IMG/VR virus record: IMGVR_UViG_3300035099_000469
Coordinates: 1-44,376 of that record
Length of the DNA: 44,376 nucleotides
Direction: 5' to 3' (one strand)
From: a virus
Part shown: one piece after another, positions 4,901 to 38,935 of the stretch
Layout: the number at the start of each line of letters is the position of its first letter
How positions within the stretch are numbered: the first letter of the stretch is position 1
The notes under the pieces: model-generated
What the model saw: only the letters and a program-made list of their open reading frames with translations
The model's database searches: none
What the model was told of the DNA's origin: nothing
Made by a program: the position numbers and the translations under genes

Positions 4901-4957
4901 AAGGTCATCAACCACTACGGCGACGAGGTGCTGAAGGTGTACGAGGTGGAGGCGTAG
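1955..4957 (+). CDS. Type III-like DNA methyltransferase (Mod), 1000 aa
   Basis: An SAM-dependent amino-methyltransferase of the beta class. The catalytic motif DPPY is at residues 175-178, preceded by a GDSLLVM segment and followed about 290 residues later by the SAM-binding motif (LDPTCGSGTTA), which is the motif order of type III Mod proteins. At 1000 residues it is longer than classic Mod (about 650): an N-terminal extension of roughly 130 basic residues and a large C-terminal domain (about 620-1000) are extra. A ribosome-binding site (GGGGAGA) precedes the ATG. Two in-frame segments, residues about 92-120 and 517-541, are made of short inverted repeats (see separate entries) and look like insertions. 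The 722-1000 part is unassigned. It would modify host DNA to protect it from the Res subunit encoded upstream. Confidence 0.9.
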   Translation: MARKKTTGTGRGRSVEAVRHKHKRKNIPTEELRDFVREEEQQPRKVLYPRDPDLDPQLVWNGKDEQDAAPLEVPAVPVYIQEKIHPQAIIDQWIVDSEKWMAEHGKPSRPSTIHDTPSLFADFNGLPAAFADRVDFYHHEGNWSNRLILGDSLLVMTSLAEKEGLKGQVQMIYIDPPYGIKFGSNWQVSTRKRDVRDGKAEDVVRQPEQIKAFRDTWQLGIHSYLAYLRDRLVVARDLLTESGSVFVQIGDENVHLVRCLLDEVFGADNFISLIAFATTSGFETKELARGGDYLLWYGKNKEGGIKVRALFEDAQKEGGASGYRWVMSSDGSYRALTVEEVRGDAPLPANVRFYKPDNTLSQGASSERQDFQYNGKTYSPGVNSHWKAQYPDGMRRLARAGRFHVSRNTIQYARFADDFAVKSRNNIWTDTITGQFTEDKVFVVQTNTKVIERCILMTTDPGDLVLDPTCGSGTTAYVAEQWGRRWITIDTSRVALTLARTRLMAARFPYYYLADDHPQIAQMNTEEEIKYHLRKSVTSVDRSSGDVRKGFIYRRVPHITLKSIANNEEIDVIHAKWQPQVEEALARLNAALRGHQTPFAVTEGGRAGHEVRFDAPADATFTMPSGQVVPVCALVEWEVPRQAPQDWPAAAHQALEEFWRLRRARQKEIDDSIQRRAEYEVLYDQPYEDPKRVRVTGPFTVESLSPHRTISVEEKRDRAERPRDWGAGDAAPPRTLKTIGPDDFGRMILENLRTAGVQTGKKGERLKFETLEPYAGQWIHGRGEYVEKDGTRKRAAVCIGPEHGTVGPELVKEAAKEAVQGVGFDVLIVCGFAFDPHVSEEAKRYGKLVVLPCRMNPDLAMGDLLKKTGSGNLFMVFGEPDVAVKKAAGGKLTAEIKGLDVYDPTTGEIRSSSTDDIACWFIDTNYNGESFFVRHAYFTGADEPYDKLRRALRAEVDEAAWSALYATISRPFDRPETGKIAIKVINHYGDEVLKVYEVEA
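2230..2314. repeat. Inverted arrays of a 7-bp word (GTGGATR) inside mod
   Basis: Left array: GTGGATC, GTGGATA, GTGAAAA, GTGGATG start at 2230, 2237, 2244 and 2251. Right array on the opposite strand: CATCCAC, CATCCAC, GATACAC start at 2283, 2290 and 2297, followed by a decayed unit. The period is exactly 7 on both arms with a 25-bp spacer. The element is translated in frame as part of the methyltransferase without a stop. Confidence 0.75.
3504..3577. repeat. Inverted arrays of a 9-bp word (CCACAGATK) inside mod
   Basis: Left array: CCACAGATT, GCACAGATG, AACACAGAG at 3506, 3515 and 3524. Right array, reverse-complement: ATCTGCGTA, AATCTGTGA, CATCTGTGG at 3549, 3558 and 3567. The period is exactly 9 on both arms with a 16-bp spacer, and the outermost bases (ATCC...GGAT) also pair. 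It lies between the SAM motif and the C-terminal domain of the methyltransferase and keeps the reading frame. Confidence 0.8.
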
Positions 4958-4960
4958 TGA

Positions 4961-5797
4961 ATGGCGAAGCGACGCCTGCCGGCAACTGATCCGAACGGGA
5001 AGCCCGCGACCGTAGACGAACTTGACACCGCCATCCTCGACCTGCTGGCCCGGCTGCCGCTCAAGTGGTCCCCGCTGGACGTGGACGGCCTGTCGGCCGT
5101 GGAGCAGGAAGCGCTCCGGCTGCTGACGGCCGGCGGGATGGTCGAGCGGCGGTTCTCATTGCGGCTGCGGTTGATCGGTCACGGCGAGGCTGTGGAGGCG
5201 ACGGTCACGGCCACGGGTGCAGGCGGGCTGGCCCAGGCGTTCGAGCCGGTGCTGAAGGCGGCCTGGCAGGCGTGGGCCGGCGACTACCTCAAGGGCCGGG
5301 CCGGCGGGCCGCAGGACCAACCGACGTTTCATTGTGAGCGCATCGGTGCGGAGGAAGCGCGGCTGACGGCGGACGGCCAGCAGGCGCGGGCCGACATCGA
5401 GGCGGGGAAGGCTCGCACGGTGCTGGATTTCCTGCACCGGCGGACGCTGGTCTTCATGGGCGTGACCGTGCCGGGCCACGGCCGCACCGAGAAGCTCCGC
5501 ACGGTCAAGGTCGTCTCCGAGCCGACGGCCCCGCTGCAGGTCGAGGTGGTCAACAACGGCCCGCTGGCGGCGATTGCCGACACGCTGGCCAAGTGGTTCG
5601 AGCGGCAGGCCAAGCAGGTACCTGACGACTTGATTACGATGCAGATCGCGCTGGACGAGTTTGAGACAAAGGAAGCGACGATTCGCCGCAAGATCAAGAA
5701 GGGGGAACTACGCGACTACCGACCGGTCGGCGCGGGGAAGAACTCCAAGCTCCTGCTGTCGCGGGCCGAGCTTGCCCGCCATTTCGGCCGCAAGTAA
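4961..5797 (+). CDS. Unrecognised 278-aa protein with C-terminal HTH-like segment
   Basis: It starts 3 bases after the methyltransferase stop and closes the cassette. The N-terminal third contains a winged-helix-like stretch (LDTAILDLLARLPLKWSPLDVDGLSAVEQEALRLL, broken here by my reading into two helices and a turn). The last 50 residues (TKEATIRRKIKKGEL, then LLLSRAELARHF) look like the helix-turn-helix ending common in planctomycete phage and island proteins. There is no catalytic motif and no membrane segment. It may be a regulator or accessory DNA-binding subunit of the R-M cassette. The function is not known. Confidence 0.75.
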   Translation: MAKRRLPATDPNGKPATVDELDTAILDLLARLPLKWSPLDVDGLSAVEQEALRLLTAGGMVERRFSLRLRLIGHGEAVEATVTATGAGGLAQAFEPVLKAAWQAWAGDYLKGRAGGPQDQPTFHCERIGAEEARLTADGQQARADIEAGKARTVLDFLHRRTLVFMGVTVPGHGRTEKLRTVKVVSEPTAPLQVEVVNNGPLAAIADTLAKWFERQAKQVPDDLITMQIALDEFETKEATIRRKIKKGELRDYRPVGAGKNSKLLLSRAELARHFGRK

Positions 5798-5830
5798 TAG
5801 ACCCCTGTCAAGCCCGTCTGCTCGATCATT

Positions 5831-5882
5831 TGCGGTCATTTTGCGGTCATTGTGCGCGCAAGTGCGGTCAAGTGCGCTCACG
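5831..5882. promoter_or_regulatory. Helically phased GCGSTCA array A
   Basis: GCGGTCA or a close variant starts at 5832, 5843, 5854 (GCGCGCA), 5864 and 5874, with spacings of 11, 11, 10 and 10, so all copies face the same side of the helix. The array ends 39 bases before the start of the HTH gene at 5921. The same word in the same phasing occurs at 33902-33961, and a weaker form at 44338-44360. An operator array for a cooperative repressor is the simplest reading. Confidence 0.6.
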
Positions 5883-5920
5883 CCCCAAGTCCGGCTCCGA
5901 ACCACCCTTATATTCGCGGC

Positions 5921-6136
5921 ATGGACCGGCGATTCATCACGCTGAGCAGACTGGCCGCGCGATTGGGCCTGCCGCGGCGATTCCTGCGTGAGCAGGCCCG
6001 ACGCGGCCTGATCCCGTACCTGCTGGTCGGCGGGCGGATGCGGTTCGAGGAAGCGGCCGTCTGCGAGGCGCTCCGCCGCCAGTCGGTCGGGCGGCCGGAC
6101 GCCGGTGCGACCGCGGAGGTCGAGCGTGCCCGGTGA
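5921..6136 (+). CDS. Excisionase/MerR-type HTH protein (71 aa)
   Basis: The protein begins MDRRFITLSRLAARLGLPR, the usual start of excisionase-like winged-helix proteins (helix 1, LAARLGLPRRFLREQ; helix 2, ARRGLIPYLLVGGRMRF; then EEAAVCEALRRQ). The ATG at 5921 is chosen because the homology begins there. The longer in-frame reading to 5852 would translate the phased repeat array. It is the first gene of the plus-strand module that carries a primase and a serine recombinase, which fits an excision or replication-control factor. Confidence 0.75.
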   Translation: MDRRFITLSRLAARLGLPRRFLREQARRGLIPYLLVGGRMRFEEAAVCEALRRQSVGRPDAGATAEVERAR

Positions 6137-6371
6137 CCTTACCAGCACCGTCCGGCCGACCCCGACCGCCGCCCGCCGGCGACCGCGACGCGGCCATCCG
6201 CCTGCGGCCGGTGTTGCTTCGACCGATCGAGTGGGCGACTTCGAGCTGCGGATCGTGCTCGCCGACGAATCTCCCGAGTCACGCCGGCGGTGGGAGCAGC
6301 GGAGCGAGGCGCTCGCCGCCTGGCTGCTGAGCCGGTGGCGTGAGCAGCACGGGCCGGAGGGGCGGAACTGA
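6126..6371 (+). CDS. Small unrecognised protein (81 aa), coupled to primase
   Basis: A GTG at 6126 lies inside the tail of the preceding HTH gene and the frame stops with TGA at 6369-6371, which overlaps the ATG of the primase (TGATG). This double coupling argues it is translated. The N-terminal half is Arg/Pro-rich and low complexity; the C-terminal half (DFELRIVLADESPESRRRWEQRSEALAAWLLSRW, given here only as a region at residues about 37-72) is a charged amphipathic helix pair. The family is not recognised. Confidence 0.6.
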   Translation: MPGDLTSTVRPTPTAARRRPRRGHPPAAGVASTDRVGDFELRIVLADESPESRRRWEQRSEALAAWLLSRWREQHGPEGRN

Positions 6372-8818
6372 TGGACGGCCTGGACCTCATCCGCCGGAAC
6401 ACGCCCGCGGGCCTGCGGGAGCCGCCGCAGTGGGTCTGCTGGCGCTCCGAGAACGCCCCGGACGGCCGGTCCCGCAAGGTGCCCTGCGACCCCAAGACGG
6501 GCCGGCCGGCCAGTAGCACCGACCCGGCGGCGTGGAGCGCCTTCGAGCAGGCGCTGGAGGCCTGCGCCGGCGGCGGCTACGCCGGCGTGGGGTTCGTCTT
6601 CACCGCCGCCGATCCCTTCTGCGGCATCGACCTGGACGACTGCCGCGACGAGGCTGGCACGCTGGCCGGCTGGGCGGCCGCGATCGTGGGGGAGCTGGCG
6701 AGCTACGCGGAGATCAGCCCGTCCGGCCGAGGCGTCAAGGTGTTCGTCCGGGCGGTCAAGCCGGGGCCGCGGTGCCGTACGGCGTGCGAGGGCGGCGAGG
6801 TCGAGCTGTACGACCGCGACCGGTTCTTCACCGTCACGGGCCACGTGCTACCGAACGTCCGCGGCGACGCGGAAGAGCGGCAGGCGCAGGTAGACGCGCT
6901 GTACGAGCGGCTGTTCGGGCCGGCCGACAACGATGCTTCCGCGACCGGCCCGGCGGGTGCGCCACGCGAGTTTACGGCGGCCGCCCCGTGCGTGCTCTCC
7001 GACGACGAGATCATCCGCCTGGCCGGAAGCCTCAGGCGGAAGAGCGGCGCGGGGCAGAAGTTCGCCGACCTGTTCGAGGGCCGCTGGGAGGGCTACTTCG
7101 GCTCGGCCAGCGAGGCCGATTCGTCGCTGTGCTGGACGCTGGTGTATTACACCAAAGACCCCGGCCAGATCGACCGCCTCTTCCGCCGGTCGGGCCTGTA
7201 CCGCCCGAAGTGGGACGAGCGGCACGGCCGGGCGACCTACGGGCAACTGACCATCGAAAAGGCCCTGGCCGGCGTGACCGGGCAGTACACACCGCCGAAG
7301 CGCTGGGCTGCACACGAGCGAACGGACGCCGCAACGGATACCACCGGCGACCCGCCCGACGAGCTGCCGCCGCTGTATCGGCCGGACGTGGTGGCCCGGC
7401 TGTTCCGCGAGGCGAACGCCCGGCTGATCTACTGGCGTGACGTGTTCCACCTGTACGGCAGGACGTGCTATCAGCCGCTGACTGAGGCCGAGCTGGGTGC
7501 CCGCGTCGCGGCCTTCATCACGGAGGTGGGCTGGTGGGCCCGGCCGGCCCGCAAGGTCGGACTGGCTTACGAGAAAGGGGCCATCCCGCACCCGGACTAC
7601 GGCGACCTGATGGTGGTGCTGGAGAAGGTCGTCCCCAAGGTCGCCCACATCCGCGAGATCTTCCTGCAACTGAAGATCGACTACCTGCCCGACGCGACCG
7701 ACGCCCCGATCTGGCTGACCTACTTCACGCGGCCGCTGGCGGTAGAGTTGCTAGCCTGCGCCAACGGATTGCTGCACCTGCCGACGGGGCGGCTGCACCC
7801 GCACGACGAGGAGCTGTTCGCGCTCAACGCGGTGGACTACGACTACGAACCGCGGGCCCCCGCCCCGTCCGCCTGGCTGGCGTTTCTGTATGACCTGTTC
7901 GGGGACGACCTGGAGTCGGTCGAGACGCTCCAGGAGCTGTTCGGCTACTTCCTCCTGCCGGACACCCGCCAGGAGAAGATCGGCCTGATCGTCGGCCCCA
8001 AGCGGAGCGGCAAGGGCACCATCGGCCGGGTGCTCACGGGTCTGCTGGGCAAGGCCAACGTGTGCGCCCCGACGCTGGCCAGCCTGGGGACGAACTTCGG
8101 CCTGTGGCCCCTGCTGCACAAGCCCCTGGCAATCATCAGCGACGCCCGATTGAGCGGCCGGACCGATCAGGCGGTGGTGGTCGAGCGGCTGCTGAGCATC
8201 AGCGGCGAGGACACCATCACGGTGGACCGCAAGCACCTGGCCCCGTGGACGGGCAAGCTGCCGACGCGGTTCCTGATCCTGACCAACGAGCTGCCGAAGC
8301 TGTCGGACGCCTCGGGCGCGCTGGCCAGCCGCTTCGTGCTGCTGTGTCTGACGCGGTCGTTCTACGGGCGCGAGGACATGCTGCTGACGGACCGGCTGCT
8401 GGAGGAACGCCCGGGCATCCTGAACTGGGCGATCCAGGGCTGGCGGCGACTGAACGAGCGCGGCTACTTCGTCCAGCCCGGGGCGTCGGAGGAGGCGCTC
8501 CGGCAGCTCGAAGACCTGGCCTCGCCGATCAACGCCTTCGTTCGCGAGCGGTGCATTGTGGGGCCGGACCGGTCGGTCGAGGCGGGCGAGCTGTTCGCGG
8601 CGTGGCGGACCTGGTGCGAGGAGACGGGCCGGGCCCACGCGGGAACGATCCAGGGCTTCGGGCGCGACCTGCGGGCGGCGGTGCCGGGGTTGCGGATGTC
8701 ACAGCCGCGGGTGGAGGGTGGTCGGACGCGGTTCTACGAGGGCCTCGCGCTGGCGGAGGACGAGCAAGCCACGGGTTTGGCTGGCACGCTTGGCACGCAT
8801 GGAACGCGATCCTGGTAA
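6371..8818 (+). CDS. Primase-polymerase/helicase of NrS-1 / D5 phage type
   Basis: An 815-aa replication protein. Residues about 85-91 (GIDLDDC), then EISPSGRGVKVF and ELYDRDRFFTVTG, are the AEP-type primase/polymerase motifs seen in NrS-1-like proteins (metal-binding Asp pair, His/Arg and second Asp). The C-terminal half is a D5-type superfamily 3 helicase: Walker A GPKRSGKGT at about 541-549, acidic ISDARLSG at about 590, and sensor segment RFLILTNELPKL at about 630. It starts on the TGATG overlap with the previous gene. It would prime and unwind the element's DNA. The last residues (GTLGTHGTRSW) are encoded by a 9-bp repeat that continues downstream. A second, unrelated primase-helicase is at 36482-38935. 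Confidence 0.88.
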   Translation: MDGLDLIRRNTPAGLREPPQWVCWRSENAPDGRSRKVPCDPKTGRPASSTDPAAWSAFEQALEACAGGGYAGVGFVFTAADPFCGIDLDDCRDEAGTLAGWAAAIVGELASYAEISPSGRGVKVFVRAVKPGPRCRTACEGGEVELYDRDRFFTVTGHVLPNVRGDAEERQAQVDALYERLFGPADNDASATGPAGAPREFTAAAPCVLSDDEIIRLAGSLRRKSGAGQKFADLFEGRWEGYFGSASEADSSLCWTLVYYTKDPGQIDRLFRRSGLYRPKWDERHGRATYGQLTIEKALAGVTGQYTPPKRWAAHERTDAATDTTGDPPDELPPLYRPDVVARLFREANARLIYWRDVFHLYGRTCYQPLTEAELGARVAAFITEVGWWARPARKVGLAYEKGAIPHPDYGDLMVVLEKVVPKVAHIREIFLQLKIDYLPDATDAPIWLTYFTRPLAVELLACANGLLHLPTGRLHPHDEELFALNAVDYDYEPRAPAPSAWLAFLYDLFGDDLESVETLQELFGYFLLPDTRQEKIGLIVGPKRSGKGTIGRVLTGLLGKANVCAPTLASLGTNFGLWPLLHKPLAIISDARLSGRTDQAVVVERLLSISGEDTITVDRKHLAPWTGKLPTRFLILTNELPKLSDASGALASRFVLLCLTRSFYGREDMLLTDRLLEERPGILNWAIQGWRRLNERGYFVQPGASEEALRQLEDLASPINAFVRERCIVGPDRSVEAGELFAAWRTWCEETGRAHAGTIQGFGRDLRAAVPGLRMSQPRVEGGRTRFYEGLALAEDEQATGLAGTLGTHGTRSW

Positions 8819-8909
8819 TTGCGGAAAACTTTCGGGCCTATTGGTTTGATCGAGGGAAGTAAAAAAAAGAGCTGCAATAGGGTGGATCGCGTGCCATGCG
8901 TGCCGCGCG
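8782..8909. repeat. 9-bp repeats and 21-bp inverted repeat around A-rich core; candidate origin
   Basis: TGGCACGCT, TGGCACGCA and TGGAACGCG follow one another with period 9 at 8782, 8791 and 8800 in the end of the primase gene. A 21-bp segment at 8792-8812 recurs inverted at 8884-8904 with a single mismatch. The 71 bp between (8813-8883) include an A8 run and are AT-rich for this window. Iterons beside an A/T tract right after a primase-helicase gene suggest a replication origin. This is inferred only. Confidence 0.5.
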
Positions 8910-8939
8910 GGCCGAAACGGGACCAAGGAGAGCGTGACG

Positions 8940-9182
8940 ATGAGCCTGGACTTGAACAAGGTGGCGGCCACCCCGGAGTGGATCCGCCGGCTCCCGCTGT
9001 CTCCGACCTGCCTGCTGTGCGGGGCGGACAGCGAGATCATCGGCGTGTGGGTGCGGCCCAAGAGCAACGGCGGCCAACGGCTGGTGTTCTACTCCCTGTG
9101 CCGGCCGTGTACCCGGCACGCGGACGAGAAGGCCGACCTGATCGAGCGGATCCTCGAAGGCCGGCTGGCCCAACTCAACTGA
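8940..9182 (+). CDS. Small zinc-binding protein (80 aa)
   Basis: Begins MSLDLNKVAATPEWIRR. It carries a CLLCGAD knuckle at about residue 28 and a second pair in YSLCRPCTRH, giving a C-x2-C ... C-x2-C-x3-H zinc site. A good ribosome-binding site (AAGGAGAG) precedes the ATG at 8940; the GTG at 8934 is less likely. It sits between the primase-helicase and the AlpA-like gene, so a nucleic-acid-binding role in replication or control is plausible. The specific family is not recognised. Confidence 0.7.
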   Translation: MSLDLNKVAATPEWIRRLPLSPTCLLCGADSEIIGVWVRPKSNGGQRLVFYSLCRPCTRHADEKADLIERILEGRLAQLN

Positions 9183-9337: not shown

Positions 9338-9733
9338 ATGCTACGTGCAACGGAGCGCGAACTGGTGGCCGCCAGGAAGGTCGCCGACGCCGTGACAGAA
9401 TTCCTGATTGCTTGGGACGAAGGTCGGCGACTCCGGACGCCTGAGGAAAGCAGGCCCCAGGTCGAGGTGAAGCTGCCGGAATGGCCACCCGTCCCAAGGC
9501 CGGGGCCCGAGCTTCCGCAGGAGCCAAAGCTCCCGCCGGCAGACCCTGGCCAGCTCATCGGGGTAAAGGAACTGGCGAAGCTCTTGGGATGCGGGTCCCG
9601 CACCATCTACCGGCTCGCCGACAGCGGGCGGATGCCGCGCCCTCGCAAGGTTGGCGGCCTCGTTCGGTGGTCGCTCATGGAGATCAGGAAGTGGGTCGAG
9701 GACGGCTGCCCGAAGGATCACCGCAGGCGGTAA
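9338..9733 (+). CDS. AlpA/excisionase-family HTH protein (131 aa)
   Basis: The C-terminal half is a standard helix-turn-helix_17 (excisionase/AlpA) domain: LIGVKELAKLLGCGSRTIYRL at about 69-89, then ADSGRMPRPRKVGGLVRW and IRKWVEDG. The N-terminal half is a helix followed by a Pro-rich linker. A strong ribosome-binding site (AAAGGAGG) lies 7 bases before the ATG. Its position immediately before a large serine recombinase suggests it is the recombination-directionality or transcription factor of that element. The preceding 150 bp (9183-9337) contain no gene that I can see. Confidence 0.85.
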   Translation: MLRATERELVAARKVADAVTEFLIAWDEGRRLRTPEESRPQVEVKLPEWPPVPRPGPELPQEPKLPPADPGQLIGVKELAKLLGCGSRTIYRLADSGRMPRPRKVGGLVRWSLMEIRKWVEDGCPKDHRRR

Positions 9734-9734
9734 C

Positions 9735-9818
9735 GGGTCCTTCCGGCGTTTTCCGGGAGGCGTACCGCCGCGAGAACGGCACCGGAGCGGGTTTGTTTCG
9801 TTCGACGGCGCGCGCACA
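9735..9818 (+). repeat. Dispersed 84-bp structured repeat, copy 1
   Basis: It starts one base after the HTH stop. Landmarks are GGGTCCTTCCG, a 19-bp variable stretch, CCGCCGCGAGAACGGC, CCGGAGC, then a T-rich GTTTGTTTCGTTCG and a GCGC run. The same landmarks at the same spacing occur inverted at 35870-35953. Here the variable part forms an 8-bp hairpin (CCTTCCGG / CCGGGAGG, one G-U). It lies in a 235-bp stretch with no gene. Confidence 0.65.
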
Positions 9819-10010
9819 GCCGACCACGCCTCCTGCCACGCGCGGCGCTGCCCCTGGCTGGCCGGCCGGGAGCCGTCCGGGATCGACCCGCACGGTTTTC
9901 AGACGGAAAGCAGCCCGCCGATGCTTGACACGCTGGCCATCGTGACCGCAAGGTGGACGTAAGACGCGATGACACAGGCACTTGCGACAGAGCAACAGGA
10001 GGCAAGAACG

Positions 10011-11324
10011 ATGATCGCGACGGTCACGACGCCGGCAGTGGCCTACCTGCGCCGGTCCACCGACAAGCAGGAACAGAGCATCGCCGACCAGCGGAGCGAG
10101 ATCGAACGGTACGCCCGCGACCGCGGCTTCCGCATCGTCCGGGAGTACGTGGACGACGCCATCAGCGGCACCTCGGCCGAACAGCGGCCCGGCTTTCAGA
10201 AGATGATCGCCGACGCCCCGGCCGGCGGCTTCAAGGCGGTGATCGTCTGGAACTCCGACCGCTTCAGCCGCGGCGACGTGACCGAGACCGAGTATTACCG
10301 CTTCCTGCTCCGCAAGGCCGGCGTGACCGTCCTGAGCGTCACCGAGGATTACCTCGCCCGCGAGGGCATCGACGGCGACGTGTTGCGAACCGTCAAGCAG
10401 TTCCAGAACCGCCAATACTCGATCAGCCTCTCGCAGAACACGCTCCGCGGGCAGATCAGCTCGGTGACGGCGGCGGCCAACCCGTTCCGCTGGAGCACGA
10501 AGTACTTCGATCCCGAGACGGGGCTGAGCGACTCCGGCGGGCGGTACTACCACGCCGGGCTGGGGCGCTGGCCGAATCGTGATCCCATCGGGGAAGTCGG
10601 TGGCCTCAACCTCTACGCCTATGTGCACAACGATCCGGTGAACCGGGTCGATCCCTTCGGGTACATGGCCATTCCGTGCCCGTGGCTCTTCACCGATCCG
10701 TCCCGCTGCGGGTCGTGCCCGGGAAAGCCGCAGTCACAACCGGCGACGCAGCCCGACTCGCAACCCGCTTCACAACCAAAGGAAAGCGAAGGCTGGAAGA
10801 AAGCAAAGAACATAGATGACTGCCGTATGGGTCCTCCACCTGGAGGTAACCCGGGGAACTGTCCAGATCCGTCGCCGGGACTCCTATTGTGCATGGCATT
10901 CAAGGAGTCCAGCTTTGACCCAACACCCGGCAAAGGGGACGTCCGTGGCATGGGCAAGATGAGCGAAGCCGCGTGCAAAGACGTGGATGCTGCCTACAAG
11001 CAGCCCCCGGGCACGTGCTGGAACAAGGTGAACAGCGGCGATGCGTGTGCGCAACAGCAGATGATGGATGCATATATGCGCGTACTCCTCGGCAGATCGA
11101 AATGTGACACAGACGAAGCGCTGAAGCGCTACGGAGGTTGGGCCAAGAAGCCCAAAGAGGGTAAAGACCGGTACGTCGATCCAATCCGCAACTGTGAACA
11201 CTGCGTTCAGGGAATACTGAATGGCCGACCCTGTCGCGATGTTCCAGAGTCAGAACTGAAATCCTGCTTTGAGAAGCTGACCGAGGAATCCAGGGAAGCA
11301 AATCGGCGCTGGGACCGCCGTTAG
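10011..11324 (+). CDS. Serine recombinase catalytic domain fused to RHS core and lysozyme-like tip
   Basis: Residues 1-150 are the resolvase catalytic domain of a large serine recombinase: VAYLRRSTDKQEQS with nucleophile Ser16, then YVDDAISGTSAEQRPGFQ and VWNSDRFSRGD. At LRGQIS the family sequence stops and an RHS-associated core begins without frame change (NPFRWSTKYFDPETGLSDSG, then RDPIGE, LNLYAYVHNDPVNRVDPFG). A linker rich in Gln/Pro/Ser leads to a C-terminal domain with CMAFKESSFDP (candidate catalytic Glu near 299), GMGKMSEAAC and many Cys residues, resembling a lysozyme or transglycosylase toxin tip. The ATG at 10011 has AGGAGG upstream; 9969 is an alternative. The recombinase has lost its DNA-binding half and cannot be a normal integrase. 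It could be genuine or an assembly chimera. Confidence 0.75.
   Translation: MIATVTTPAVAYLRRSTDKQEQSIADQRSEIERYARDRGFRIVREYVDDAISGTSAEQRPGFQKMIADAPAGGFKAVIVWNSDRFSRGDVTETEYYRFLLRKAGVTVLSVTEDYLAREGIDGDVLRTVKQFQNRQYSISLSQNTLRGQISSVTAAANPFRWSTKYFDPETGLSDSGGRYYHAGLGRWPNRDPIGEVGGLNLYAYVHNDPVNRVDPFGYMAIPCPWLFTDPSRCGSCPGKPQSQPATQPDSQPASQPKESEGWKKAKNIDDCRMGPPPGGNPGNCPDPSPGLLLCMAFKESSFDPTPGKGDVRGMGKMSEAACKDVDAAYKQPPGTCWNKVNSGDACAQQQMMDAYMRVLLGRSKCDTDEALKRYGGWAKKPKEGKDRYVDPIRNCEHCVQGILNGRPCRDVPESELKSCFEKLTEESREANRRWDRR
10476..10566 (+). repeat. 91-bp direct repeat in RHS core, copy 1
   Basis: Identical to 12998-13088 except for one base (C versus T in GACTCC/GATTCC). It encodes the conserved RHS core. 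The upstream neighbour is recombinase sequence and the downstream neighbour is the lysozyme-like tip. Confidence 0.95.
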
Positions 11325-31295: not shown

Positions 31296-31481
31296 CTACT
31301 GAGGCGCTTCGCGCGTGGTCATGCGTTTCCCGCAGTGCCGACACTCGCGCAGCCGGCGCACCGCGCCATTGGGCAGCGGCCGGACGTAGACCACCCGGAA
31401 ATGCTGGCATCCACACGCCCGGCAGACCAGCCCGGCCTTCTGCCCGTCCACAACCGCCTCGCGCTGTCGAACCTTGGGCAC
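31296..31481 (-). CDS. Zinc-ribbon protein (61 aa), Ogr/NrdR-like
   Basis: The GTG at 31481 shares a base with the terminase stop (TAGTG) and has AGAGGAG upstream. The protein is VPKVRQREAVVDGQKAGLV, then CRACGCQHFRVVYVRPLPNG and LRECRHCGKRMTTREAPQ. The paired C-x2-C knuckles with a final TTRE resemble zinc ribbons of Ogr/Delta-type late activators and NrdR N-termini. It sits just before the twin-palindrome leader and could be the regulator of late genes. It is short and was placed from sequence reading. Confidence 0.75.
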   Translation of the reverse strand: MPKVRQREAVVDGQKAGLVCRACGCQHFRVVYVRPLPNGAVRRLRECRHCGKRMTTREAPQ

Positions 31482-33724
31482 TACCGTTTGCTCCTCTGCA
31501 ACTCGGACAGCCGCAGGCGCGGCCGCTCCGGCCGCTTCGCATCCGTGCCGGGCACTACGACGCCCTGAAGCGACGCCGCGACGGCGCAGCCGACCAGGCA
31601 ATCGAACCAATGGTTGTCGGGTCTCGACGGCTTCGGGCGCCACTCGCGGACCGTCCGCCCGTGGCCTTCCGTGACGACGTAGCTTTCCGCTTCGGCGACG
31701 TGCTCGGCGAACAGCCGATGATGTTCGGGCTTCTTGCCGAAGAGCGTGAGTGCCCCGCGGTCGCCCGCGGCCGTCGCCAGCCGCGCATGGACGAAGGTCT
31801 TCCAGAAGTTGGCATCGAACGCCACGTGCCGGAACTCGCTCGACCGCGACACGTTCGGGATGTACCAGTTGCAGCCGTGCCGCTCGCCCGGCCGGCGGCG
31901 GTACGTCGCCATCGGCTTGTGGCCGGCCTTCAGGCCCATGCCCTTCGACAGCATCACGGCCGGGCCGAGCTTGATCGCGACGGCATTGCACACCGCCGGC
32001 AGATAGCCGGAGTCGATCAGCAGCCGCTCGACGCTCAGCAGCACGCCGTCGGTCCGCTGCCACCGCCGGGCGAGCAAATCGCCGGCGAGCTGCTCCAGGC
32101 CCGCCTGGACCGCGCCTTCCTTGCCCGCCCCGCGGAACACCGCGGCCAGCGTGGCGGTCGCGTCGCGGAGCGTGAAGTACAGCCGCTTCTGATCGGGGAA
32201 CGTGCCGTAGTCGATCACGGTGCCGGTGAAGTCCTCCTCCCACGCGCAGACGCACCAGAACAGCAGCTTGTCGTGCACGTCGATGAACGCGGTGACGCGC
32301 GTCGCGGCGAGCGGCACCTCGCCCCGCGGCCGGCCGGTGATCTTCTCCGCAACCTGCTCCGCGGTGAGCCGCTCGTCCTCGAACTGCTCCATCACCGGTT
32401 CGTTCTGATACTCGGCGGCGAACGCTTCCTCGTCGCGCAGCTTGAGGTTCATCGCGTGCTGAAGCGCGGAAAGCTCGGTCTTCGGGTCGAAGCGCTCGGG
32501 CCAGGCGACGACGGCGCCGGCGTCCATCGCTTCGCGGTGCGCGGTGTAAAACGCCGTCGCCGGCTTGAGGCTCTTGCCGGTCCGCAAGCCTTCGCCACGG
32601 AGCCGCGCGTACTCGTCCCAGAGCTTCTCGTTGGTCGGGAAGGCGTAGACCAGCCTGGTGCATTCGCCCTGCCACTCGGGGTTCTTCTGGCGATCGAGCA
32701 GTTGGTCGGCGAGGTCGCCGGCGTAGATTTTGGTGCACGTCAGCACCGCGGCGATGGACTCGCCCGGACCGGCCATACACAGCACGTCGCCGGTGAGAAG
32801 CTGGAGCCGGTAGCGCGTCTGCGACGGCGAGCGCGCCGACTGCCGCGTTTGCGGATCGTCCAGCAGCACGAGCGACGGCCGCAGCGTCCGACCGTCCATC
32901 GTCGTGTGCTGCTGGCCGCGCATGTTGGCGTCCAGCGACGTGACGGTGATGATCGCGCCGGACGCCTCGTTGTACGGGCCTTCGGCGGTGGGGAAGACCA
33001 GCTTGTCCGCCGACCAGGTGCAGTAGGTCGGCCGGCCGTCGATGTGCTGGCCGATCTGCCGGCGGGCGTTGTTCTGGAGCCGGTGCAACGGATAGATGGC
33101 CTTCGGAAAGTCGGCCAGCAGCAGCGGGTTTTCGAGGATGGCTTTGCGGATCGGGGCCAGCAGTTCGATGGCCCGCTCCTGCGCGCCGCCGATCAGACAC
33201 ACGAACGGCCGGTACCCGGACAGGACCGCCCACAGCGCGGACAGGCGCGCGAGCGTCGTCTTCCCGGAACCGCGAGGCATGGCGAAGGCGAACAGGCCGC
33301 CTTCCTTCACCGCCCGTTCGATCTTGTCGATGACGCGCAGATGGTCTTCCGACCAGCCGCGGTAGAGCGTGGGCGCGAAGTACGTTTCGCAGAAGAAGCG
33401 GAAGTCGGCCCGCGCCCGTTCGCGCCGCTCCAGGTTGACGATCTCCGGCAGCGGCGCGACGTTCTGACTGCGCCAGGTCTCGGTGTTCTTGCGGGCCAGG
33501 TCCGCGGCCCGGGTGTCGATCGCGGGCCTTTCCGGCCGCTCCACCTCGCGGATGAGCCAGCGCAGGTAGTCCAGCAAGCGGATGTGCCGGCCGTCGTGCC
33601 ACCGCCGGCCGGCGCGGTTCATCTGCCGGTCGAGACGGGACCGCGTGAGCGACTCGCCCAGCGCCGTCGAGTTCAGCAGTTGGACGAGCTCGTTGCGGGT
33701 CAGCCTGTTCGGATCAAGCGCCAT
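31481..33724 (-). CDS. terL: Phage terminase large subunit (747 aa)
   Basis: Walker A AMPRGSGKT at about 147-155, Walker B LVLLDDP at about 284-290, and a C-terminal nuclease region with an acidic cluster (VTAFIDVHDKLLFW near 455; LLIDSGYLPAV near 570). Family resemblance is to GpA-type terminases of planctomycete and Mu-like prophages. It would cut and translocate phage DNA into the prohead. It starts inside the end of the HTH gene by 11 bases. At 747 aa it is longer than T4-type terminases but normal for this group. Confidence 0.9.
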   Translation of the reverse strand: MALDPNRLTRNELVQLLNSTALGESLTRSRLDRQMNRAGRRWHDGRHIRLLDYLRWLIREVERPERPAIDTRAADLARKNTETWRSQNVAPLPEIVNLERRERARADFRFFCETYFAPTLYRGWSEDHLRVIDKIERAVKEGGLFAFAMPRGSGKTTLARLSALWAVLSGYRPFVCLIGGAQERAIELLAPIRKAILENPLLLADFPKAIYPLHRLQNNARRQIGQHIDGRPTYCTWSADKLVFPTAEGPYNEASGAIITVTSLDANMRGQQHTTMDGRTLRPSLVLLDDPQTRQSARSPSQTRYRLQLLTGDVLCMAGPGESIAAVLTCTKIYAGDLADQLLDRQKNPEWQGECTRLVYAFPTNEKLWDEYARLRGEGLRTGKSLKPATAFYTAHREAMDAGAVVAWPERFDPKTELSALQHAMNLKLRDEEAFAAEYQNEPVMEQFEDERLTAEQVAEKITGRPRGEVPLAATRVTAFIDVHDKLLFWCVCAWEEDFTGTVIDYGTFPDQKRLYFTLRDATATLAAVFRGAGKEGAVQAGLEQLAGDLLARRWQRTDGVLLSVERLLIDSGYLPAVCNAVAIKLGPAVMLSKGMGLKAGHKPMATYRRRPGERHGCNWYIPNVSRSSEFRHVAFDANFWKTFVHARLATAAGDRGALTLFGKKPEHHRLFAEHVAEAESYVVTEGHGRTVREWRPKPSRPDNHWFDCLVGCAVAASLQGVVVPGTDAKRPERPRLRLSELQRSKR

Positions 33725-33902
33725 CGTGCTGCCGCTTCTGCTCCTGCTGGTTGAGCCACGCCCCGTAGACGATCAGGTCGATCCGCTTGTCCACCAGTGG
33801 TAGGCCGCGGCGGATGTGCGCGCGGATCGTCTGCGGCGCCACCTTCAGCAGCTTCGCCGCGGCGGCGACCGTCAGGGCGCGGATGTCGAGTTCGGTAGCC
33901 AT
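33714..33902 (-). CDS. Small HTH protein, possible terminase small subunit (62 aa)
   Basis: MATELDIRALTVAAAAKLLK, VAPQTIRAHIRRGLPLVDKR form an excisionase-type helix-turn-helix; the rest is YGAWLNQQEQKRQHDGA. The ATG at 33902 is used; an upstream TTG at 33920 would begin within the phased repeat. It overlaps the terminase by 11 bases, as small terminase subunits often do. It may instead be an autoregulator of array B, which begins at its first codon. Confidence 0.75.
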   Translation of the reverse strand: MATELDIRALTVAAAAKLLKVAPQTIRAHIRRGLPLVDKRIDLIVYGAWLNQQEQKRQHDGA

Positions 33903-33961
33903 GCGGTCAAGTGCGGTCAAAGTGCGCTCAAAATGCGGTCATTCGCGGTCAAGTGCGCTCA
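33902..33961. promoter_or_regulatory. Helically phased GCGSTCA array B
   Basis: GCGGTCA/GCGCTCA copies start at 33903, 33913, 33924, 33935, 33945 and 33955 (spacings 10, 11, 11, 10, 10; mean 10.4). It ends in the same CGGTCAAGTGCGCTCAC string as array A (5831-5882). It covers the space between the radical SAM stop (33939) and the HTH start (33902), including the stop codon. Confidence 0.65.
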
Positions 33962-35357
33962 CTCCCAGGGCTCCATCCGGCCACGGCGCGCCGGCGCGCT
34001 TCCGCGCCACCACGTCGATGGTTCGCAGCTTTTCGTTCGGGATGTAGGACGCGAGATAGCGCGTCGGCAGCGTTTCCCACGTGTAGCCGGCAAACAGCCG
34101 GGCGACATCGACGTGCCGCTCCAGCATGGCCGTCTTATGCGCCATGCTGGCGTTGCGAAACTTCGACGAACCGGCCAGCCGGGCAATGGTCTCGGAGTCG
34201 TCCTCCACGCCACGCAGCACCAGCGCGTCGAGGATGACCGTCGGCAGGCTCTCCGTGCCGCGCGACTCAGCCGCCCAGAACCGATTGCCGCGGTAGAAGA
34301 TGCCCTTGTACTCCCGGTGCTTGCCCTGGCTGAGCACCCTCGTGATTCGGCCGCGGTAGTTGACGTGGCTCATCGGCCAGCACGCACACGGCGTCGCCGG
34401 CATCGGTCGAAACGGCGTCGAGTGGACCTCGATGCCCCATTGCGGGTCGATCTTTGTCCAGCCTTCGTCCGCCGCGGCGAGGTCTTCGAGGAACTCGAAC
34501 CAGTCGGCTTCCGTCTCCGTCGGATAGCCGACGATGTTGTAGACCTTCATATGGTTCGGCGCGACCTGCGCCGCCGCCAGGCCACGGAAGAAGCCGCGGA
34601 GCATGTCGCGCGTGATCGGCTTGCCGACCATGCGCCGGAGCCGTTCGGAGAAGCCGTCCAGGCCGACGATGCGGAGCTTCGGCAGGCCCCAGGTCTCCGG
34701 GCGGGCCAGGTCCAGCTCGAAGATGGTCTTCTCGGCCGAGCCGCCCCAGAGCACGTCACCCGCGCCGGCTTCGTTCTGGAGTCCGCCGACGTGCCGCCGG
34801 TGCCAGGTATAGGCGCAGAACAGGCATTTGCGCTGGCAGCCGTAGGCGGTCTCGCGCCAGGTCTTCCCGTTGGCCAGCGGCACCGCGTACGGAAACAGCG
34901 CCGTCCCGGCGTCGATGAAGTACGTGTTGCTGACATTGAACTCGGCCGCGTACACGACTGACGGGTGTTCGAGCTTCTCACCGGCCAGCGCGGCGCGGAC
35001 CAGCGGAACGACGTACTCCTCGGATCGGCCCAGACAGAAGACGTCGCACCACCGCAGGAACGGCCGCACGTTGAGCAGCCCCGCGCCGCCGGCGATGACC
35101 GTCGGCCGGACCTGGCGCGGCCAGCGCAGCCGCTCGGTGACGAACGGGTACCAGTCGCAGCCGGACGTGATCGAGACCAGCACGACCTTGTACCGGCCGA
35201 CCGTCGCGGACGAGCAGTAGTCCACCTCGACGCCCGCCTGCCGCAGCGCGTGGCAGACCATCTCCAGACCCGGCCAGGCACGGACGTTGTAGCTCTCGAC
35301 CGCGTAGGCCGGTTTCGCGTAGCGGGACTGCACGTACACGGCCACTTTGGCGCTCAT
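33939..35357 (-). CDS. B12-binding-type radical SAM protein (472 aa)
   Basis: ATG at 35357: MSAKVAVYVQSRYAKPAYAV. The N-terminal half looks like a cobalamin-type Rossmann domain (VVLVSITSGCDWYPFVTERL, TVIAGGAGLLNVRPFLRWC, VFCLGRSEEYVVPLVRAAL). The radical SAM cluster motif is GCQRKCLFCAYTW with Cys at 174, 178 and 181. Later segments (PKLRIVGLDGFSERLRRMVG, HMKVYNIVGYPTETEADWFE) are the usual barrel strands. Radical SAM enzymes cut S-adenosylmethionine to start radical chemistry. Between a ParB-like protein and terminase in a prophage, a role in DNA or nucleotide modification before packaging is possible. The substrate is unknown. Confidence 0.85.
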   Translation of the reverse strand: MSAKVAVYVQSRYAKPAYAVESYNVRAWPGLEMVCHALRQAGVEVDYCSSATVGRYKVVLVSITSGCDWYPFVTERLRWPRQVRPTVIAGGAGLLNVRPFLRWCDVFCLGRSEEYVVPLVRAALAGEKLEHPSVVYAAEFNVSNTYFIDAGTALFPYAVPLANGKTWRETAYGCQRKCLFCAYTWHRRHVGGLQNEAGAGDVLWGGSAEKTIFELDLARPETWGLPKLRIVGLDGFSERLRRMVGKPITRDMLRGFFRGLAAAQVAPNHMKVYNIVGYPTETEADWFEFLEDLAAADEGWTKIDPQWGIEVHSTPFRPMPATPCACWPMSHVNYRGRITRVLSQGKHREYKGIFYRGNRFWAAESRGTESLPTVILDALVLRGVEDDSETIARLAGSSKFRNASMAHKTAMLERHVDVARLFAGYTWETLPTRYLASYIPNEKLRTIDVVARKRAGAPWPDGALGVSALDRE

Positions 35358-35362
35358 GGGTC

Positions 35363-35848
35363 TCACTCCACGGGGAACTCGTGGCCGCACTTCGGGCAGC
35401 GGACGGTGTCGGCGGCATCCGCGTGGGCGTCGCCGTCTTCGAGGTCGGTATCGAACTCGCGGAGGTACTCGGCAAGCTCCTTGTCAGAGAAGCCGGCCAG
35501 CTTCAGGTCGAAGCCGCCCTCGCGCAGCTCGCCCAGTTCGATCGGCAGCAGGTCCACGTCCCACTCGGCGTTCTCGGCGGTCCGGTTGTCAGCCAGGCGG
35601 TAGGCCCGGGCCTGCTGGGGCGTGAGGTCCGCGGCGACATGCACGGGGACCGTCTTGAGGCCGAGCTTGAGGGCCGCCTTGTAGCGCGTGTGCCCGACGA
35701 CGATGACGCCATCCGAGTCCACCACGATCGGTTGCCGGAATCCAAACTCGCGGATGGACTCGGCGACGGCCTGGACCGCCTTGTCGTTGCGCCGCGGGTT
35801 CTTTTCATAGGGTCGGACCCGGTCGATGTCCCATTGCTCGATCTTCAC
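35363..35848 (-). CDS. ParB/Srx-fold protein with C-terminal zinc knuckle (161 aa)
   Basis: GTG start at 35848 with AGGAGG upstream and a GTGA overlap with the previous stop. VKIEQWDIDRVRPYEKNPRR, AVQAVAESIREFGFRQPIVV, DGVIVVGHTRYKAALKLGLK and AYRLADNRTAENAEWD are the ParB N-terminal (ParB/sulfiredoxin-fold) motifs, including GHTRY in place of GERR. The end CPKCGHEFPVE is half a zinc site. In phages such proteins accompany DNA methylases or modification enzymes, and 5 bases separate it from the radical SAM gene. No partition partner (ParA) is seen. Confidence 0.85.
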   Translation of the reverse strand: MKIEQWDIDRVRPYEKNPRRNDKAVQAVAESIREFGFRQPIVVDSDGVIVVGHTRYKAALKLGLKTVPVHVAADLTPQQARAYRLADNRTAENAEWDVDLLPIELGELREGGFDLKLAGFSDKELAEYLREFDTDLEDGDAHADAADTVRCPKCGHEFPVE

Positions 35849-36492
35849 GGCTGGTGGACCTCCTGCCCCGGCGTGCGCGCGGCCGAACGAAAAAAACCTG
35901 CTCCGGAGCCGTTCTCGCGGCGGTTCTTTTCCGACGGACCGTCGGAAGGACCCGGAGCGTCCCCCGAAACCTCTGCGACCTCTGCAACCTCTGCACGACG
36001 GAGACGCGGCCAGGCCCACACGTCCTTGCTGATCTGCGGGCCGTGATACTCGGCGCAGTAATGCCACTCGTCGGCCGGCGGCAGGCACACGTGCGGCAGC
36101 GGGCACGCCAAGCCGCTGCTGGTGGGCACCTTGGACCGCAGGCAGTCCGCGCAGCGGCAGTGCTTCAGCAGCGTGACCGGCCCGGGCAGGTGCAGAGGTT
36201 GCAGCGGTTGCAGGGGTCCGGCGTCGATACGCTCTGTACGGGCGCGCGCGTGCGCGCGCGCGTGCGCCCGCGCATGCGTAAGGCTGTGAGAAACCTCTGC
36301 AACCTCTGCGTGCCGCTCGTAACCTTCGCTCGGTGCGCGACTTGGCGATGCAGAGGTTTTACAAAACCTCTGCACGACCTCTGCAACCTCTGCGTGACGA
36401 CCGCCGCGCATGGGGTCCGCCGGTTCGCGCAAAACCCCTGCAACCCCTGCGTCCTGCGTGGCCAGCCGGTGAAGGACATTCTCAAGCCCCAT
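35845..36492 (-). CDS. Repeat-rich protein with Cys/His cluster (215 aa)
   Basis: Coupled on both sides: the ATG at 36492 overlaps the primase stop by 11 bases and the TGA overlaps the ParB start. The recognisable core, about 110-165, is Cys/His-rich (LLKHCRCADCLRSKVPTS, CPLPHVCLPPADEWHYC, GPQISKDVWAW) and may bind zinc. The flanks are peptide repeats of AEV produced by the 9-bp word GCAGAGGTT (HAEVAEV twice, RAEVAEVAEV) and an HARAHARA stretch from an alternating GC tract. The last 40 residues are encoded by the dispersed 84-bp repeat. It has therefore absorbed three kinds of repeat without losing the frame. Function unknown. Confidence 0.6.
   Translation of the reverse strand: MGLENVLHRLATQDAGVAGVLREPADPMRGGRHAEVAEVVQRFCKTSASPSRAPSEGYERHAEVAEVSHSLTHARAHARAHARARTERIDAGPLQPLQPLHLPGPVTLLKHCRCADCLRSKVPTSSGLACPLPHVCLPPADEWHYCAEYHGPQISKDVWAWPRLRRAEVAEVAEVSGDAPGPSDGPSEKNRRENGSGAGFFRSAARTPGQEVHQP
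35870..35953 (-). repeat. Dispersed 84-bp structured repeat, copy 2
   Basis: Inverted copy of 9735-9818 with the same landmark order and a 19-bp variable part, here a perfect 9-bp hairpin TTCCGACGG-T-CCGTCGGAA (35929-35947). The conserved CCGCCGCGAGAACGGC and T-run follow. It lies inside a reading frame, unlike copy 1. Confidence 0.65.
35968..36450. repeat. 9-bp word RACCYCTGC in both orientations, about 14 copies
   Basis: Forward units at 35968, 35977, 35986; 36292, 36301; 36365, 36376, 36385; 36433, 36442. Reverse units at 36192, 36201, 36210; 36350. Adjacent units keep period 9. The pair at 36350-36373 (GCAGAGGTTTT-AC-AAAACCTCTGC) is a perfect 11-bp hairpin. Confidence 0.8.
36242..36267. 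other. 26-bp alternating purine-pyrimidine tract
   Basis: Uninterrupted GC/GT alternation from 36242 to 36267, followed after three bases by another 11-bp alternating stretch. This composition favours left-handed Z-DNA under torsion. It lies within the reading frame of the 215-aa repeat protein, in the middle of the 9-bp word cluster. Confidence 0.6.
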
Positions 36493-38935
36493 GGATGTCC
36501 TCCAGCCGGTAGACCGCCTGACGAGCCTTGCGCTGACGGATGCGCCACTGGCCGATGGGTGCGTTGACGTGCCGCGTCAACAGCTTGCCAAACACCGAGC
36601 CGCGGGCGGCGATGCCGTTGCGAGCGAACACGAAGCCGAACAGGCCGTTCTGCTCGGCGAGGTTCATCAGTTCGAGCGCTGTCACTTCGGCCGCGCCGAA
36701 GGTCTCATGCCACACCTCGACAAACGTCTCCATCTCGGAGCCGTGCGGGTTGGCCACCTTCTGCCACTCGCCTTCGTTCGTGCGCCACGCCCGCAGGCCG
36801 TTGACTTGCAGGATGCCGCCGACCACCTCCGACCAGCTCTCGAAGCCGCCGAGTCGGTCGGTGCATGTCGGCCGGCCGGCCGCGAGCCAGTTCTCGACCA
36901 GCCCGAGCAGGCATTCCAACACCGTCCGCCGCTGCCGGCGCACGTAGGCCCGGATGTCGGGATGCTGGAAGTCGGTGCGGGCCTCCGGGTTGGCCGAGGC
37001 CGGCTCGATCATGATGGGGACGATCCGCTTGGCGATCTCCCCGGACGCCTGGACGTTGTTGCCCGTGCCAACGACCGTGAGGTTGTTCGGCAGTGACACG
37101 TTTCGCGAGTAGCCCAGCAGCCGGCCCAGGAAGCGTTGGGTCGTCAACAGGCTCGCCAGCGCCGGCGAGTCGATGTAGGACGGCAGGTTGTCCAGGTGCA
37201 TCAGCGTTTCACCTTGGAGCAGCATCGCCAGGATGCGTTTCTCGCGCTCCTCCTCCCGGTCGGTGATCTGCATGGACGGCGTGTCGCGGCCGGTGACGAT
37301 GCCGCCGAAGACCTCGTTGACCAGCTTGCTCTTGCCGGTTCGCTCCAGGGGCGCGTTGAGCAGGTGCATCGGGCGGTTGCCGTCCAGCGCGGGCGTGACG
37401 ATGGGCGTCAGCAACAGGCCAAAGAAGTTCTGCCGGTCCGCTTCGCCCTTGAACGGGAAGTCCACGACGAGATCGTGCAGTACGTTGTGAATGACCTCGC
37501 AGTCGGTCTCCGGCCGCAGGTCGCGCAGCTCGACCGGCTCGTCGTAGAACAGCCCGTCATGCCAGCCCGGCTCAACAAGCTCGAAGCCCGGCCCATAGAC
37601 CGGGTAGGACACCATCAGCGACAGCTCGCGGACGCCGGCCGCGCCGGTCGCATGGGCGACGACCAGGCCCGCGGCGTCCTTGTTGCACGCCTGGTAGAGC
37701 AGCAGTTGCTCTTTCGTCTGCCGGTGTGTGACCCACTTCCCGAGCTTGACGTGGCCGTCCACGACGATGCGCATCCGGTCGGCCGACAGCTCGACCCACT
37801 TCCGCCGGCCGGGGGCGCCGATGATCTCGCCGGGGATGAAGTCGCGCCGGTAGATCGCGTCGTCCGGCAGCCGCGACAGCACTTCCGCGGCGAAGTCCGC
37901 GCTGGACCGCTCGATGTATTCGTCCTGGTCGTCCTTGTGCGGGCCGGGGAGCAGGATGTACTCGCTTGAGTCGCCGTCGGGATCGCCTTCGCCCGCCGGT
38001 CGGTCGCGCAGCTCGATCCGGCGCGGCTGGGCAATGCCCGAGTCCAGACCCGAGCGAAGCGTGGCGTCGATTTCCTTCGGCTCCAGGCCGACCGATTCGG
38101 CGGCGCTGCGCAGCGCTGCTTCCACCTCGGCCCGGTCCAGATAGCCGCCGCCGATCAGCCGGCCCAGGCTGAACGCCGCCCGGTTGAGCGTCTCATTGCG
38201 CGTTCCGTCGGCGGCGCTGCACAGCGCGTGCAGTTCGAGTTGCAGCGCCCGCTGCGCGTAGCGGGCCGCTTTGGCGTCGGCGCGGTCCGTTTTCGCGGCG
38301 GGCGGTCCGGGAGCCGGTCGGGACGGCGTTTCGAGCGCCGCGGGCAACGGCGGCCCCGCCGCGGCCTGTTTGGCGCGCTCTGGCGACTCCAGCAGTTTCA
38401 CGATGTGCGCCGGCAGTTCGGCGATTTCCACCTTCCACGGCTCGCGGCCTTCCGCCCACGTGTACGTCGCCCCGGTGTCGGGATGCACCGAGCCGGGGAA
38501 GACGACCTGCCCGCGGTCGGCCTTAACGTCGATGTGCGGCCCCAGCTTCTTTGAGGAGTTGCCCAAGGGGCGGTCGTGGCGGAAGTAGAGGTGGAACGCG
38601 CCCGGGCGCCCGGATAGCGCCGTCACCGTGCCGGGCAGATCGAGCGGCTCGATGTCCGCGCCGGGGTCCACGTCGATGACGACGATGCCGCTGGCCCGGC
38701 CGGTGCGCAGGCCGACGTTGCCCTGCGCCGCCCACGCGAGCACCTGTTCCAGCGACTCGCGCGGCGCGGACTGCCAGCCCTTCAGCACGGGGCGCTTGCC
38801 GTCCAGCGGCGTGAACGACCAGCCCAGGCCGTAGCCGTAGCGGACGCTTGTCGCCAGCGGGCTACCCGAGCCGGACGCCGGCGGCGGCGAGTCGCCGCCG
38901 CACGTCTTCGACGGACTTTGCGAGGATGTAGACAC
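36482..38935 (-). CDS. Prim-pol / primase-helicase (817 aa), second replication protein
   Basis: The N-terminal bifunctional primase-polymerase domain has GWSFTPLDGKRPVLKGW, the metal site IVVIDVDPGAD at about 82-92, and HLYFRHDRP and DVKADRGQVVFPGSVH later. A middle spacer of low complexity leads to a C-terminal ATPase with a degenerate Walker A (PLERTGKSKL, about 527-536), TLMHLDNLPSYIDSP and a sensor-like LTVVGTGNNVQASG. This is the plasmid/phage prim-pol-helicase type, distinct from the 6371-8818 protein. The start at the ATG at 38935 overlaps the VRR-NUC gene by 74 bases. It probably initiates prophage replication. The 9-bp repeat cluster begins immediately downstream. Confidence 0.87.
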   Translation of the reverse strand: MSTSSQSPSKTCGGDSPPPASGSGSPLATSVRYGYGLGWSFTPLDGKRPVLKGWQSAPRESLEQVLAWAAQGNVGLRTGRASGIVVIDVDPGADIEPLDLPGTVTALSGRPGAFHLYFRHDRPLGNSSKKLGPHIDVKADRGQVVFPGSVHPDTGATYTWAEGREPWKVEIAELPAHIVKLLESPERAKQAAAGPPLPAALETPSRPAPGPPAAKTDRADAKAARYAQRALQLELHALCSAADGTRNETLNRAAFSLGRLIGGGYLDRAEVEAALRSAAESVGLEPKEIDATLRSGLDSGIAQPRRIELRDRPAGEGDPDGDSSEYILLPGPHKDDQDEYIERSSADFAAEVLSRLPDDAIYRRDFIPGEIIGAPGRRKWVELSADRMRIVVDGHVKLGKWVTHRQTKEQLLLYQACNKDAAGLVVAHATGAAGVRELSLMVSYPVYGPGFELVEPGWHDGLFYDEPVELRDLRPETDCEVIHNVLHDLVVDFPFKGEADRQNFFGLLLTPIVTPALDGNRPMHLLNAPLERTGKSKLVNEVFGGIVTGRDTPSMQITDREEEREKRILAMLLQGETLMHLDNLPSYIDSPALASLLTTQRFLGRLLGYSRNVSLPNNLTVVGTGNNVQASGEIAKRIVPIMIEPASANPEARTDFQHPDIRAYVRRQRRTVLECLLGLVENWLAAGRPTCTDRLGGFESWSEVVGGILQVNGLRAWRTNEGEWQKVANPHGSEMETFVEVWHETFGAAEVTALELMNLAEQNGLFGFVFARNGIAARGSVFGKLLTRHVNAPIGQWRIRQRKARQAVYRLEDIHGA

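Follow-up and report, generated by a model that had tools for sequence, protein, structure and literature searches.

The virus contig IMGVR_UViG_3300035099_000469 from IMG/VR, analyzed here over its whole length of 44,376 nt (the window), carries two arrays of a short GCGSTCA unit, one in a satellite-like element and the other in a phage. The arrays common to these two elements raise the question of what they do and which protein may read them. To our knowledge, few bacterial operators are phased direct-repeat arrays of this kind. If the array were read by a protein of one of the elements, this would offer a testable route by which a satellite could sense or steer its helper.

Two phased arrays in two modules

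The two arrays are located as follows.
5820..5882, plus strand: array A, five good GCGSTCA units and a weak sixth at 5820-5830
33901..33963, plus strand: array B, six GCGSTCA units

The units of array A start at 5832, 5843, 5854, 5864 and 5874 (steps of 11, 11, 10 and 10), the third unit being GCGCGCA, and those of array B start at 33903, 33913, 33924, 33935, 33945 and 33955 (steps of 10, 11, 11, 10 and 10). The string CGGTCAAGTGCGCTCAC is common to both. Positions, copy numbers, spacings and the common string were all exactly as given by an earlier, sequence-only reading of the window. Array A lies between a 278-aa gene and the HTH/primase operon of the satellite-like element. Array B lies inside the phage packaging operon, where it spans the stop of a radical-SAM gene (33939-33941) and the ATG of the gene at 33714-33902. 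Both arrays read GCGSTCA on the plus strand; relative to its downstream gene, A therefore has the same orientation and B the opposite one.

Arrays A and B are real and far above chance. A motif-blind finder, which scores 8-mers recurring every 10-11 bp across the window, gave 42 for array B and 34 for array A, the top two scores in the window, with the next place at 20; the highest score among 200 Markov-simulated windows was 28, below that of either array. A third array that had been proposed at 44338-44360 scored 13, the same as background places, and was discarded.

Two further arrays were found in related loci (L037 and L091, see below), with step series of 10, 11, 10, 11 and 11, 11, 10, 10 between them. 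Over the four arrays, the 17 steps had a mean of 10.47 bp and every unit lay within 1 bp of a 10.5-bp ladder, which bears out the one-face phasing at about 10.5 bp that had been claimed. Unit positions C1, A6, G2 and C5 were near-invariant, while the linker bases varied. Slippage would be expected to leave a fixed period, and mixed 10/11 steps were seen, so selection for one face is the simplest reading and the arrays appear to be kept on one face of the helix.

The phage occupies 14163-43453 on the minus strand, with the following main features.
19577, minus: tape measure gene
27279, minus: capsid protein gene (Phage_capsid_4 / Mu-like gpT)
29356, minus: portal gene
31481..33724, minus: large terminase, gpA type
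33714..33902, minus: winged HTH of small-terminase type (62 aa), encoded immediately upstream of the large terminase
33939..35357, minus: radical-SAM / B12-binding-type gene, its last codons in array B
35363..35851, minus: ParB-N-type gene, which opens the packaging module (start placed from relatives)
35874..35953, minus: phage copy of a cos-like box (GGGTCCTTCC..GAGAACGGC..GTTTTTTT)
35969..36460, minus: probable phage origin, where an alternating GC tract sits among GCAGAGGTT iterons of both orientations
36482..38935, minus: Prim-Pol primase
39182, minus: DEAD/ResIII-type helicase gene
41722, minus: Sak4-like AAA protein gene
42785, minus: sigma-like factor gene

Relatives of the large terminase were detected in 55 of 392 Planctomycetota genomes. 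A small clade of these phages has the radical-SAM / B12-binding-type gene in its packaging module. At the phage edge there are an IstB-like remnant (13427-13720, minus) and a DUF4357 protein (13692-14162, plus).

The left module (about 1955-10469, plus strand) includes a DNA methylase and the following features.
4961..5797, plus: 278-aa protein, common to the satellite relatives L365 and L368
5921..6133, plus: HTH A, a 71-aa winged HTH (HTH_17 / excisionase-type), 38 bp after array A
6371..8818, plus: primase-helicase (NrS-1 HBD, DUF5906, D5_N; TIGR01613 P4 family)
8782..8908, plus: probable satellite origin, TGGCACGCNT / TGGCACGC iterons inverted around an AT-rich stretch and placed directly 3' of the primase
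9338..9733, plus: AlpA-like HTH_17 regulator (HTH_17 8.8e-11; Phage_AlpA 22 bits, cut-off 21)
9735..9814, plus: satellite copy of the cos-like box
9969..10469, plus: serine recombinase catalytic domain, running in frame into RHS sequence at 10470

This module looks like a phage satellite. Among the marks used for PICIs (PMC6092414), it displays a primase accompanied by two sets of iterons with an AT-rich stretch between them, and an AlpA-type regulator, and no structural or packaging genes were recognised among the main proteins of 1955-10469, the left boundary lying outside this view. A putative packaging site is matched by sequence only (76/80 to the box of phage L034). The relatives L365 and L368 have the same gene order, a tyrosine integrase, non-phage flanks and a two-sided iteron origin on the same plan as the window satellite; both belong to one planctomycete genome, where they lie about 60 kb apart and differ in their origin iterons. 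Relatives of the 278-aa protein were not found in viral contigs. At the left end (243-1783), a 334-aa ORF is followed by a PIN-domain protein, possibly cargo or a toxin-antitoxin-type pair.

The recombinase ORF is cut at an RHS-core repeat of 97 nt (10470-10566 and 12992-13088, 98% identical), which bounds the 2.6-kb join to the phage, and a search for an att pair found none. The RHS ORF stops matching at 13088. The repeat may mark insertion points in tandem RHS genes, or it may be an assembly chimera joining satellite and phage, so that the adjacency of the two is putative. The sharing of array and box is independent of this physical adjacency.

Distribution of the array and the box

The related phage and satellite loci (the L-numbers, 1.62 Mb in total) were scanned with a weight matrix derived from arrays A and B. 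Further arrays were detected only in L037 (score 51) and L091 (44), while the reversed matrix peaked at 21 in the same sequence. The L091 array occupies the same radical-SAM/small-terminase junction as array B. The L037 array lies between the ParB-N and radical-SAM genes and not beside an HTH gene. Ten records encode the radical-SAM gene, and of these only L037 and L091 have the array. At the radical-SAM/small-terminase junction no array was found in L034, L028, L026, L031, L035, L074 or L027, and the junctions of array-less relatives, L028 among them, measure only about 10-20 bp. The large terminase of L034 is 96% identical and its small-terminase helix near-identical, yet it is without the array. 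The satellite relatives L365 and L368 are also without a GCGSTCA array. As the array is missing from most near relatives, it is best described, on these sequence comparisons, as an optional add-on at gene junctions and not as something obligatory, be it for packaging, as an origin or as the operator of the adjacent HTH gene.

The sequence-only reading had tied the arrays to HTH genes and had proposed a search of the genome for such arrays. With the related loci included, the link to HTH genes is only partial. A and B each adjoin an HTH gene; the link fails for the L037 array, which precedes the radical-SAM gene, for the phages with nearly the same small terminase and no array, and for the satellite relatives, of which L365 has another HTH, of AlpA-like type, ahead of its primase.

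A motif widespread in hosts was considered and rejected: in 392 Planctomycetota genomes, the matches listed all had one or two mismatches and none was A/B-like. A scan of genome contigs returned tandem repeats in many phyla. In viral contigs the exact three-unit pattern had 23 matches, compared with 17 for the reversed pattern, and most were near-perfect tandem repeats in unrelated contexts, so a globally enriched viral motif was rejected too.

The second shared element is the 80-nt box. The satellite copy is identical to the box of phage L034 at 76 of 80 positions (95%) and to the phage box of the window at 63 of 80, and the homology between satellite and L034 ends at the box edges, where 13-16 of 50 flanking positions match (about 28%). 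The consensus, GGKTCCTTCC..GGGAAC..GTTTKTTT, is located upstream of packaging genes in these phages; 30 of the 34 viral loci with the box pattern also encode this family's ParB-N or large-terminase gene, and in L033, L337, L348 and L349 the box lies close before the terminase genes. Comparison with annotated phages gave no convincing match. Most simply, the box is a putative cos-type site, a reading taken from its position; it may instead be a promoter or another signal of the packaging module. The array and the box are the two predicted cis elements common to satellite and phage. The single control circuit that the earlier reading hinted at for the two modules is hypothetical; what they do share is these two elements. 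The box makes helper-satellite pairs searchable in the phylum Planctomycetes; among the papers searched, none mentions phage satellites together with Planctomycetes.

Candidate readers of the arrays and rival explanations

With moderate confidence, we regard arrays A and B as putative operators for a head-to-tail oligomer of a small winged-HTH protein whose fold class is MerR/excisionase/BldC/TerS. Each GCGSTCA unit would be bound by one monomer, and neighboring monomers would stack head to tail, cooperatively, along one face of the DNA. Occupancy of the array would then change transcription of the next genes, that is, satellite replication at A and the small and large terminases at B. The earlier suggestion that the spacing is ideal for cooperative oligomer binding is consistent, by analogy, with precedents of the same fold (BldC, PMC5859096; winged-HTH excisionases, PMC11963761). 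HTH A is the leading candidate for binding array A. In favor of the operator reading are the scores far above chance, the motif and mixed 10/11 steps common to four arrays in four contexts, the near-invariant unit positions, the start of HTH A 38 bp downstream of array A, its fold, and the lack of the array in L365 and L368, with another HTH at that place in L365. A single protein reading all four arrays would need to be a factor common to satellite, phage or host.

The AF2 model of HTH A (pLDDT 80) aligned best with 6hn7 chain A, taken as RppC by its length (Z 7.7, rmsd 4.2, 60 residues aligned). It also aligned with BldC (6ama_P; Z 6.8, rmsd 2.7, 55 aligned), as well as with Pukovnik Xis (4j2n_A; Z 6.4, rmsd 2.7, 53 aligned). 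The matches to RppC, TerS, BldC and Xis are close together (Z 7.7-6.4) and all below Z 8, and the predicted fold alone gives no choice between packaging and transcription roles. The NCBIfam BldC family model gave no match to HTH A; in that search only TIGR01764 excise matched, its 28.2 bits lying under the cut-off of 28.8. HTH A displays a DNA-binding domain of the Rpp/TerS fold, near to other winged-HTH proteins as well; its 71 aa fall short of the approximately 135-154 aa of Rpp proteins, which have oligomerisation helices. Several observations count against the operator reading: homologues of HTH A were not found in viral contigs, the L037 array has no HTH gene beside it, A and B are oppositely oriented to their downstream genes, and the fold matches of HTH A are as close together and as low as stated. 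A fuller version, in which HTH A is a minimal Rpp/TerS-like winged HTH that polymerises on both A and B, at B over the start of the small-terminase gene of the helper, and could tie satellite replication to the packaging operon of the helper, the left module being a planctomycete-phage satellite with a captured 80-nt helper packaging site and the array a second shared cis element, is in our judgment improbable as a whole.

The main rival to the operator reading is packaging, in which the arrays would be cosB/R-like sites and their reader the phage small terminase, or else HTH A in the part of a TerS-like or Rpp-like partner; we consider it unlikely. The gene at 33714, which had been called an excisionase, proved to be of small-terminase type from its phrog_57 matches (10 of 19 family members), its structure and its position. 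Its model aligned with 6hn7 chain B (Z 7.5, rmsd 3.0, 58 aligned) and with 7lw0 (Z 7.5, rmsd 1.3, 49 aligned), both clear of the next matches. Like a lambda-type small terminase, it has a winged-HTH domain and is encoded directly upstream of a gpA-type terminase; at 62 aa, compared with 181 in lambda TerS, it is without the oligomerisation and TerL-binding domains. In favor of packaging are also the best alignment of HTH A with 6hn7 chain A, the cos-like box in both modules and the location of array B just upstream of the small-terminase gene, as for the R sites of lambda cosB (PMC9026076). However, L034, L028, L026, L031, L074 and L027 have the same small-terminase family (and the box where covered) without the array, so that array B is not kept with the small terminase across the phage clade and an obligate pac or cos role was rejected. 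In L034 and L028 the recognition helix is nearly the same and the array is absent, so the array is not a conserved terminase site. The satellite L365 likewise has a box-like sequence and no array. Arrays and boxes lie about 1.9 and 3.9 kb apart, and the array is no part of the 80-nt unit that was transplanted.

Distant relatives of the 33714 protein keep a (V/I)NLVHYAAWL-type tail and have an acidic recognition helix (e.g. VRADIEAGAPA), which suggests loss of sequence-specific DNA binding in these proteins.

Neutral tandem duplication at tight gene junctions would account for the overlap of array B with the ends of both flanking genes, and tandem GCGGTCA repeats with no apparent function do occur in viral contigs at about the background rate noted above. 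The mixed 10/11 steps, the conserved motif set against variable linkers in four arrays, and the lack of any other such array in the 1.62 Mb beyond L037 and L091 make this explanation quite improbable.

It is very unlikely that the primase-helicase of one of the elements binds the arrays as replication iterons. Helically spaced repeats with other motifs do adjoin the primase genes of L276, L051 and L311, and the origin repeats of the satellite L368 are loosely like the array. However, the iterons of the primase/ParB-N gap change from phage to phage (GCAGAGGTT in the window, GGAGTCT in L037, GGGAGAATC in L091), while the GCGSTCA motif is constant and located elsewhere, and this led us to reject the array as origin iterons. 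The left module also has its separate origin-like region at 8782-8908. An NrS-1 template motif (TTTGGTTA, GTG; PMC8718748) was at first suggestive, since the left primase has an NrS-1 HBD; it was rejected, the primase of the array-B phage being a Prim-Pol with no match to NrS-1 HBD.

The phages examined (window, L276, L051, L311, L037 and L091) each have their own iteron family, in both orientations, in the gap between primase and packaging genes. An alternating purine-pyrimidine GC tract (GCGCGCAC...) at 36235-36295 is also found in L037 (2770-2800), L091 and L303 (2740-2780). It sits amid differing origin iterons and is possibly a Z-DNA or melting element.

A centromere-like partition site of parC/stbDR type is the least probable reading: a ParB-N gene is nearby and stbDRs are sets of five 9-bp direct repeats with 2-nt spacing (PMC3098194), but phages that have no array keep the ParB-N gene too, and a scan of the proteins recognised no ParA/ParM-type partner.

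Comparison with known systems

The R388 stbDR/StbA system, whose short direct repeats come in sets of five with a period of 11 bp (PMC3098194), resembles the arrays in this respect. It differs in motif and context, with no StbA-like gene recognised here. The left module is like the Gram-negative PICIs and P4-like satellites in its recombinase, AlpA-like regulator, primase-helicase, two-sided iteron origin and cos-like site and in that no structural genes were found. Unlike these, it is planctomycete-associated, encodes a serine recombinase, carries the cos-like box of its own phage family and is known from sequence alone.

Compared with lambda cosB and the PICI cos-rpp systems, array B is similarly directly upstream of a TerS-type gene and HTH A resembles the Rpp/TerS DNA-binding domain. 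The lambda R sites adjoin the small-terminase gene on its upstream side (PMC9026076). In lambda, three R sites and an IHF site are next to cosN, whereas here 1.9-3.9 kb separate the array from the cos-like box, and close relatives have no array.

The excisionases and RDFs that form filaments, such as Pukovnik Xis and RdfS, are HTH group 17 proteins like the class assigned to HTH A, and RdfS oligomerises on DNA (PMC11963761). Their sites are at attP or the rdf promoter, whereas kilobases separate arrays A and B from the recombinase; RdfS also has no clear motif, unlike the GCGSTCA of the arrays. The Streptomyces protein BldC binds as head-to-tail multimers on variable numbers of direct repeats (PMC5859096). 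Its motif, AATTXXXX(C), differs from GCGSTCA with linkers of 3-4 nt; its operators vary in repeat number, and it is a MerR-like winged HTH of the same fold class as HTH A. BldC is the closest mechanistic precedent for such head-to-tail reading of direct repeats that vary in number.
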